From the NCBI GenBank assembly GCA_021846395.1, contig JAJZXB010000002.1, positions 1-64,000 of the forward strand: a stretch of 64,000 nt of DNA, in the 5' to 3' direction. The notes under the pieces were generated by a model. That model ran no database searches, was not told the DNA's origin, and saw nothing but the letters and a program-made list of their open reading frames with translations. The position numbers and the translations under genes are program-made. Positions 6,190 to 13,241 of this stretch are shown here, in pieces; position 1 is the stretch's first letter, and each line of letters opens with the position of its first letter. Source of the DNA: Thermoplasmata archaeon (GTDB taxonomy: Archaea; Thermoplasmatota; Thermoplasmata; Thermoplasmatales; Thermoplasmataceae).

Positions 6190-6962
6190 GAAATCAGATA
6201 AAATTAGCAAATCTATACGTGAGACAAGGGAAAGGAGGAAATCACAGACATGCAGATTTTATCCATATATCAACATTTACTGGAATAAAAGATATAACAC
6301 ATTCTGATAATGGCATTGGCATTGATTTCGGTATTAAAAGTTCATTAACACTATCAAATGGAATAATCATTAATGAAGATATACCACTAACAGGGAAGGC
6401 TATAAAACTTCATAAAGAACTATCACGTAGAAAACAGCATGGGAAGAACTGGTATAAAACACTGAATAAGTTGAATAAAGAATATAAGTATATAACACAG
6501 AAGAAGAAGGATGAAATAAATAAGATAGTTAATATTATAACAAATAGTTTTGAGACAATTGCATTCCAGAATGATCCCATAAAAGGGTGGATGAGATTGT
6601 GGGGAAGAAAGATTCGGGGATCAGCAATAGGAGGAATAATGGATGATTTAAAGAGAAAATCACGTACTCCTAAGGTTGTTCCAAGATATACACCCACATC
6701 ACAGGTATGCTCAATATGTGGCCATAGGCAGAAGATGCCTCTGAAGGAAAGAACATTCAACTGTGGATCATGCAACCTTTATATTGATCGGGATCTAAAT
6801 GCATCAATAGATATATTAGAATATATGGTACCTGTGGAACACATGGAATATACCCCTATGGGCATTAAAGCCTATACATCCATGGTGAGATACCTGAACA
6901 GTATTCCATGTGTGAAGGCAAGCTTTGTGGTTGATATAGGAAGCTTCACTGCTTTAGCGTGA
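6182..6962 (+). pseudogene. tnpB: IS605-family tnpB with internal deletion and frameshift
   Basis: RNA-guided nuclease of IS200/IS605 elements, here broken. The ATG at 6182 opens a TnpB-like start (MSEKSDKISKSIRETRERRK) that stops after about 41 codons. A second frame, shifted by one base, then carries the catalytic half: GIDFGIK (RuvC-I Asp), FETIAFQND (RuvC-II Glu), CSICGH...CGSC zinc ribbon and IDRDLNASIDI (RuvC-III Asp). The middle of the N-terminal domain is gone compared with the usual length of about 370-400 residues. The triad and all four Cys are intact, so decay looks recent. A small hairpin (GTTC/GAAC at 6967-6979) follows the stop and may mark the right end. Confidence 0.85.
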
Positions 6963-11383: not shown

Positions 11384-12100
11384 ATGATGGAAACAAAAAA
11401 ATTATTCCTAGATGATTCATATTTAAAAAAATGTGATAGTAAAGCTGTTATGGTTGAATTTACAGATTTAACCGTCGATCAAACAATATTTTACCCCACC
11501 TCCTTCGGTCAGCAGAATGACAGGGGAACGGTGACAATAGATGGAAAAGAATTCCAGATCATTGATGTCTGGGAGGATGGGCAATTTGTCCATTTGATAT
11601 CACTTGATACCTATCCACAGGATATAAGTGGAAAAAGTGTTCATCAGGAGCTTGACTGGAATATCAGGTATGGCCACATGAAGTTGCGATCGGCACTTTT
11701 TATTCTTGGGGGGCTTGCATATAAATTTTACAATGCAAAATCCAGAATAAGTCAAACATATGACGACAAAGCATGGATTGACATTTATATAGATAACCTT
11801 TCCAGTGAAATTGTAAATAAAATACTGGAGGAAGCTAATAAAATCGTTTCAAATAATCTGCCAATAGAGGTTAAATATGCTGATAAAAATGAATTCTCAA
11901 TAGAGAAACAGATGTTTGGCTTTTCAACGGGAAAAATTCCAGATGAAGAGCCATTGAGAACTGTCAATATTTCTGGACTGCCACTGCAGGCTGATTATGG
12001 CAATCATGTAAAACAGACGGGAGAAATAGGTGAAATTGAAGCAAAAACCTCAATGGTAAAGGGCAAAATAGACAAAAGGCTAACAATAACCCTAAAATAA
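11384..12100 (+). CDS. AlaX-like protein with degenerate zinc site
   Basis: Related to the editing domain of AlaRS and free-standing AlaX, which hydrolyse mischarged Ser/Gly-tRNA-Ala. Shared blocks are FYPTSFGQQNDRG (canonical FYPTxGGQxxDxG), RYGHMKLRSALFIL (canonical RxxHMxLHTAxHxL) and a C-terminal NHVKQTGEIG (canonical CGGTHVxxTGEIG). Three of the four zinc ligands are changed: His to Arg102, His to Phe106 and Cys to Asp204; only His208 remains. The fold is kept while the metal-dependent deacylase site is lost. Start chosen at the first ATG of GTG-ATG-ATG, about 25 bases after TTAAATATAA. Function may be tRNA binding or something new. Confidence 0.75.
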   Translation: MMETKKLFLDDSYLKKCDSKAVMVEFTDLTVDQTIFYPTSFGQQNDRGTVTIDGKEFQIIDVWEDGQFVHLISLDTYPQDISGKSVHQELDWNIRYGHMKLRSALFILGGLAYKFYNAKSRISQTYDDKAWIDIYIDNLSSEIVNKILEEANKIVSNNLPIEVKYADKNEFSIEKQMFGFSTGKIPDEEPLRTVNISGLPLQADYGNHVKQTGEIGEIEAKTSMVKGKIDKRLTITLK

Positions 12101-12131: not shown

Positions 12132-13241
12132 ATGGATGAAATTGAAATAATGAACAAAGTAAACAGAGCCTTTTCGTGGCTGGGTATCATTATATCCATT
12201 ACCATATTTATTTATCTTTTACCATCCACTCTCTCAAATATTACCGGGATATCCCATTTATCTTCTTCATACATTTATTTATTTTTTCATCTAAATGCCG
12301 CAGTGGTATACCTGTTGATTTTTTTAACAATATCCCTTATATTCCTATCTGTTGCTTCAATTATATACAAATCAAAAATTTCTGCAAGCTTTGATCAGGA
12401 TAACAATAAATTATTTTTTTCCTTTTTCTCTGTGTACATCTCCGTACTTATTGTTTCTTCTGTAATAATGGAAATAATATACCCACAAATTACCCCTCAT
12501 AGAATATTTCTGTACAATTATGGAACTCAAAACTTTATCTTTTCAGTAAGTTCTGTAATGCAGATGATCGTTGTTGAATTTATTCCAATTACCATTTTAC
12601 TTTTGATATATTTTGCAATTTCAAAAAATTTAAAATTGAGCTCACTTCTTAACCCTTACCGGTATATAAAAAATATAGTGTTTGTATTTATAATCATTAC
12701 CGCAGGAGTGTCTGTTTTTATAGTGGGTGAAAATATATACAGTTCGATATTACTCTATATATATACCGTGATGCTCACCTTCATTTATCTAAGATTTGGA
12801 TTTTTAAGGGCGTTGTTGGTGAACTTTTCTTCAACAGGTATTGATATGGCTCTTTCTTTATTCTCTGGAAATGTTTTTATCAGTACTTCCCTTTCAGTAT
12901 TTCTGTTCATATGGTCTTTTATTGGCATATATACAATAACAATAATATTCGTTAAAACAAGGTCTAATACTATCAGGAAAAATAAAGAAGAGCAGGATAC
13001 TGAAAAAAGCAACACTGAGGAAATAACTAGGGAAAAAAATAACGAAATAATAGACAGAATAACCAAAACAAACCCAAATAAACTCTGGATAAGAAGTTCA
13101 TGTCCCAACTGTGGAAGCGTTGAATTTAAGCTTGATAATGATATGTCACTACAGTGCCTTAAATGTGGTGCAGTAATAGAAAAGGATGCGGTTGGACCAT
13201 ACAACATTGTAATTAATAACTATCCAAATGCAAGAAGATAA
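12132..13241 (+). CDS. Polytopic membrane protein with C-terminal zinc ribbon
   Basis: A 369-residue protein with about seven hydrophobic segments in residues 12-280, then a charged linker rich in Lys/Glu and a C-terminal zinc ribbon CPNCGS...CLKCGAV (around residues 322-345). The ribbon should face the cytoplasm after the last helix. I do not recognise the family; CPBP-protease motifs were looked for and not seen. It follows the AlaX-like gene by 31 bases on the same strand, so the two may be cotranscribed. Zinc ribbons on membrane proteins often serve protein-protein contact or nucleic acid sensing; this is inference. Confidence 0.6.
   Translation: MDEIEIMNKVNRAFSWLGIIISITIFIYLLPSTLSNITGISHLSSSYIYLFFHLNAAVVYLLIFLTISLIFLSVASIIYKSKISASFDQDNNKLFFSFFSVYISVLIVSSVIMEIIYPQITPHRIFLYNYGTQNFIFSVSSVMQMIVVEFIPITILLLIYFAISKNLKLSSLLNPYRYIKNIVFVFIIITAGVSVFIVGENIYSSILLYIYTVMLTFIYLRFGFLRALLVNFSSTGIDMALSLFSGNVFISTSLSVFLFIWSFIGIYTITIIFVKTRSNTIRKNKEEQDTEKSNTEEITREKNNEIIDRITKTNPNKLWIRSSCPNCGSVEFKLDNDMSLQCLKCGAVIEKDAVGPYNIVINNYPNARR

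Follow-up and report, generated by a model that had tools for sequence, protein, structure and literature searches.

Retention of a zinc-less AlaX paralogue across an archaeal family of the Thermoplasmatales

AlaX proteins are usually treated as redundant proofreaders with a defining zinc site. The acceptor-stem-reading element of the editing domain lies on a beta-hairpin (reviewed in PMC3158927). The AlaX-like domain (AXD) of Plasmodium TrpRS has neither the HxxxH nor the CxxxH motif. Those who described it consider editing improbable and suggest that the domain aids tRNA binding, although on its own it produced no tRNA shift (PMC3680381). MRPL39 (mL39) offers a remoter parallel: it is no synthetase but a ribosomal protein related to the N-terminal region of ThrRS (PMC4099522). 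The Plasmodium TrpRS domain is the one described precedent of a zinc-less AlaX that was found. The literature consulted, most of it outside subscription journals, contained no paper on a zinc-less archaeal AlaX group, and none on a free-standing, ancient, family-wide archaeal version tied to a membrane protein.

The window analyzed here is a stretch of 64,000 nucleotides from a Thermoplasmata archaeon. It encodes an AlaX paralogue at 11384-12100 on the forward strand, with 238 amino acids from ATG 11384. GTG 11381 and ATG 11387 are also possible starts, giving 237-239 amino acids before the stop that ends at 12100. The ORF matches NCBIfam AlaXM (E 6.5e-52) and the archaeal AlaRS model (E 7.8e-31), in both cases over the editing domain, and at the sequence level this homology to AlaX/AlaRS is far above chance. 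Pfam tRNA_SAD, which holds the CxxxH part, gives 15 bits, below its cut-off of 24. The score on the AlaX-M family NF040865 is 176.6 bits, under the curated cut-off of 300; the canonical paralogue of the same genome, at 297.9 bits, likewise falls just below it. At all loci the gene is a stand-alone ORF without TrpRS fusion.

An AlphaFold model, made with an input alignment of 35 orthologues, has a pLDDT of 89.7. Its best PDB matches in Foldseek are AlaRS editing domains, with a TM of 0.86, together with Pyrococcus AlaX-M. Coordinates, NCBIfam matches and structural searches thus agree with the original prediction of an AlaX-type ORF that retains the editing fold. Model, Foldseek and length together give the AlaX-M architecture of an editing fold plus an N-terminal beta domain, about 210-240 amino acids, without C-Ala.

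Compared with AlaX-M (NF040865; PDB 2e1b, 9iuw), the protein is alike in length, in its two domains without C-Ala, in the acceptor hairpin, in the GQPxD loop and in fold (TM 0.83-0.88 by target length). It differs in that its clade has no HxxxH, has mostly lost the last His, has replaced the pocket glycines and carries Trp131 in place of an invariant Arg. The archaeal AlaRS editing domain (2zze, 2ztg, 3wqy) shares the fold and is the best structural match, but the present protein is free-standing and has no zinc site. The apicomplexan AXD can be regarded as the closest precedent, as both have an AlaX fold without zinc motifs. However, the AXD is fused to a synthetase, resembles the short AlaX type and has Asp, Ser, Asn and Val at the ligand positions (PMC3680381), whereas the present protein is archaeal, free-standing, AlaX-M-sized and linked to a membrane-protein gene. 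An mL39 chain is also among the Foldseek matches (E about 1e-4). It belongs to the ThrRS lineage, has extra domains and shows only about 10% identity and a TM of about 0.4. The active AlaX paralogue yields the same Foldseek matches, so mL39 was rejected as a specific relative and serves only as a superfamily marker.

The zinc motifs are replaced as had been read from the DNA, with RSALF at 11687-11701 in place of HxxxH and DYGNH at 11993-12007 in place of CGGTH. The count of three lost ligands out of four depends on the reference. It stands against the AlaRS of the same genome, which has HSATH and CGGTH (ligands H, H, C, H). The canonical AlaX of that genome lies about 66 kb further on the contig, outside the window (C22:77853-78572; L003:928-1647), and reads HTAVH and DGGTH; against it, two ligands are lost. 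Asp stands where AlaRS has its Cys ligand in this canonical paralogue and in 27 of the 36 canonical AlaX sampled across the class, and for that reason the Asp of DYGNH was probably inherited and the count is corrected. Relative to its canonical relatives, the window protein has lost both His of HxxxH and kept Asp204 and His208, while most orthologues are without the fourth His as well. DGGTH is the form of canonical AlaX across much of the class, and AlaRS and other families have Cys (CGGTH, CAGTH). Proteins with such a His-His-Asp-His metal site may constitute an AlaX subtype of their own.

The four ligand positions were read in 55 zinc-less orthologues and in the 36 canonical AlaX. Canonical proteins have His at the first, second and fourth positions in every case, and Asp (27) or Cys (9) at the third. 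In the zinc-less clade the first position is Arg in all 55 (R102), and the second is Phe (19), Lys (16), Arg (11) or Tyr (9). The third is always acidic, with Asp in 31 and Glu in 24. The fourth is Gln in 18, Asn in 16, His in 8 and other residues in 13; both motifs are strictly lost in the 47 orthologues lacking this last His, while the second motif of the window protein retains its Asp and His. The clade has gained no conserved His or Cys of its own; its two conserved His, 70 and 98, also occur in canonical AlaX. ThrRS-type editing uses a His/His/Cys/His set of active-site residues without metal. This set is absent: in none of the 55 orthologues is either of the first two residues His. In the raw counts, the second and third ligand positions pair as Phe or Tyr with Asp (28), Lys or Arg with Glu (24) and Arg with Asp (3). 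This co-change was dropped as proof of a remodeled site, as an independent-pairs test on the tree reduces it to a single event with no statistical weight.

Changes extend to the pocket around the old site. In the loop T39-S-F-G-Q-Q-N-D46 (11498-11521; canonical xGGGQPxD), the GGGQ Gly at position 41 is mostly Asp, Phe, Glu or Tyr in the zinc-less clade, and G42 and D46 are kept. At position 205, the Gly or Ala that follows the Asp or Cys ligand in canonical proteins is mostly Phe, Met, Tyr or Ile. The segment from R121 to W131 (11744-11776) holds R121, T125, Y126 and W131, all invariant in the clade. Of these, R121, T125 and W131 are new, and the site of W131 is Arg in 36 of 36 canonical AlaX. 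Position 124 of the canonical site is retained as Gln in 46 and Glu in 9. E25-F-T-D28 is an invariant motif specific to the clade. The hairpin K226-G-K-I-D-K-R232 (12059-12079) matches by position the acceptor-stem-reading element of AlaRS and AlaX, and from this correspondence is presumed to be the same beta-hairpin. Its conservation is high: K226 is present in 54 of 55, and G227 and R232 in all 55.

The zinc-less gene is a family-wide trait. A search with the single protein reached close relatives only, and distribution was therefore taken from whole-genome searches. Among 101 relatives searched, almost all genomes belonging to the family carried a distinct gene with a higher score. Profile searches located a single-copy orthologue in 69 of 77 family genomes, including all 35 of high completeness, and none outside the family among 390 genomes of the phylum or 250 of the class. 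Full-length members score at least 359 bits and the next proteins at most 185. Named relatives include a Ferroplasmaceae MAG. Genus g4 (L163, L172) is without the gene; the two genomes available for it are incomplete, at about 1.1 Mb each.

In the tree a single clade, with 100/100 support and a long stem (1.31 changes per column), unites the zinc-less proteins. The canonical AlaX of the family form their own clade, and the deeper branching order is without resolution. The simplest reading of this topology would be one duplication and one loss of the site, with vertical inheritance thereafter. Comparisons within genera give a dN/dS of about 0.02-0.11, and the gene is under strong purifying selection. 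The original prediction had asked whether orthologues keep their zinc ligands, a result that would have pointed to decay in one strain or a sequencing error. All 55 lack HxxxH, and the protein is the product of neither decay nor error. A pseudogene or an assembly artefact has nothing but the missing motif in its favor and is excluded for practical purposes by intact orthologues from 18 genera in many separate assemblies and by the low dN/dS.

The gene has a near-constant neighbor, which the original prediction did not mention. In 53 of 55 loci the next recognized downstream gene is a homologue of 12132-13241 (forward strand), which encodes a multi-pass membrane protein of 369 amino acids. It contains a number of hydrophobic stretches, and its C terminus carries an invariant C4 zinc ribbon (C324, C327, C342, C345). 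No Pfam family could be assigned to it; zinc-ribbon matches fall below threshold, and a Pfam-based name was discarded. Of the two loci without the partner, one is a contig end and the other has no recognizable partner. The two genes lie on the same strand in 48 loci and are convergent in 5, the convergent ones being those of the genus Thermoplasma, so an operon arrangement is not universal. Same-strand spacing is mostly 20 to 190 bp, and six pairs are 0.7-1.4 kb apart, some with an ORF between. One such ORF in G001 (L171:550-1752) has 400 amino acids and is 31% similar to window 6219-6962.

Other neighbors vary, with truA and pheT in close relatives of the window and different genes elsewhere. 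Genes for uL16, an agmatinase-like protein and eIF5A are often near, which makes part of the linkage general synteny; in Thermoplasma the partner alone remains. The whole family conserves the partner, and a second family of the order has a distant version of it. In that second family and in g4 it occurs without the zinc-less AlaX-like gene. In G005, of genus g4, it is kept beside uL16.

A change of function is well supported by the single origin, near-universal retention in the family, strong purifying selection and new invariant residues. This part of the original prediction, that loss of the metal on a retained fold suggested a new function, is upheld. Of the two roles it offered, tRNA binding without deacylation is favored over a different chemistry by the filled pocket and the kept hairpin. 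On balance, the reading preferred here is that the zinc-less protein binds the 3' end of tRNA without deacylating it and most likely acts with the adjacent membrane protein. The non-hydrolytic part of this reading is likely. Every orthologue has lost the HxxxH ligands, and bulky residues have taken the place of the pocket glycines, which makes ester hydrolysis by the known route unlikely, and likewise the metal-free His-based route of ThrRS. Conservation of the hairpin and the fold suggests that contact with a tRNA end persists. Editing duties are covered elsewhere, as the genome's own AlaRS and canonical AlaX keep their motifs and a canonical AlaX is present in most genera. Two observations count against the preferred reading: the Plasmodium TrpRS domain alone shifted no tRNA, and the partner gene of Thermoplasma is convergent.

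By this non-hydrolytic account, the catalytic metal site of an AlaX-M-type trans-editing protein disappeared a single time, in the common ancestor of the Thermoplasmatales family, and a protein of the same fold was then retained. The four former ligand positions would have become a charged or polar cluster that stands in structurally for zinc, Arg 102 lying opposite Asp/Glu 204. These two side chains should be close because the canonical ligands all converge on a single zinc ion. Judged from the canonical site, the amino-acid pocket would be filled by the bulky side chains that replace the two glycines. The C-terminal hairpin may still bind the acceptor end of tRNA-Ala or of another tRNA. Possibly an aminoacylated end is bound with its ester left uncleaved, and the zinc ribbon of the partner could hold the zinc-less AlaX and its tRNA at the membrane.

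The residues around the old pocket also bear on other accounts. R102, R121, T125 and W131 are invariant near it and could serve a new ligand rather than a plug. The pocket might have been rebuilt from these residues and D/E204 into a metal-free enzyme for another charged tRNA or acyl ester. This would fit the new residues in or next to the former active site, invariant in 55 of 55 orthologues. It would also fit the survival of G42, D46 and Q124 (Q or E) from the canonical site and the persistence of the gene in genus g3, which has no recognizable canonical AlaX. In that genus the zinc-less protein could still be the trans-editing enzyme. Against such an enzyme, the four former ligand positions have no conserved His or Cys, the two pocket glycines are now bulky, and positions 2 and 4 vary across chemical types, unlike catalytic residues. 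It is therefore held to be unlikely, though worth real weight. That the protein is still an AlaX, binding metal through other ligands or editing slowly with its remaining Asp and His, is very unlikely. Asp204 and His208 are present in the window protein, but 47 of the 55 orthologues lack the fourth His, none has His at either of the other two His sites, and the clade shows no newly conserved His or Cys.

The neighboring gene suggests a role away from tRNA, in which the protein would be a ligand-sensing or scaffold subunit of the membrane protein and its pocket would accommodate a partner-derived peptide or an anionic small molecule. In its favor are the adjacency, seen at 53 of 55 loci and still intact in Thermoplasma although the other neighbors changed there, and the invariant, clade-specific E25-F-T-D28 motif. 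The tRNA-binding residues of the hairpin, though, are conserved to the same degree as in active AlaX, and the membrane protein, which g4 and a second family encode without the zinc-less gene, does not depend on the partnership. This role is considered rather improbable. More speculative still, and a long shot, is that the dead editing domain and the zinc-ribbon membrane protein might form a membrane-anchored docking module for tRNA or ribosomes in acidophilic archaea. The idea cites the frequent position of the partner gene beside the uL16 and eIF5A genes, and is drawn by likeness to mL39, a synthetase-derived domain near the exit site of membrane-bound mitoribosomes.

An acidophilic archaeal family, several members of which have sequenced genomes, thus keeps a zinc-less, free-standing AlaX, as old as the family itself, alongside working editing enzymes. 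Its task is probably not to clear wrongly attached amino acids from tRNA. The locus offers a compact case for the role of an editing fold after loss of hydrolysis, with a named candidate partner. The search of genus g3 (L105, L167, L169) found AlaRS, ThrRS and the zinc-less protein, with no recognizable canonical AlaX, and the zinc-less gene is the sole AlaX-like gene detected. Automatic annotation as an 'alanyl-tRNA editing protein' would consequently credit this genus with trans-editing that is possibly absent. In its zinc-less protein, the two former zinc motifs read RTALR and DHGTH.
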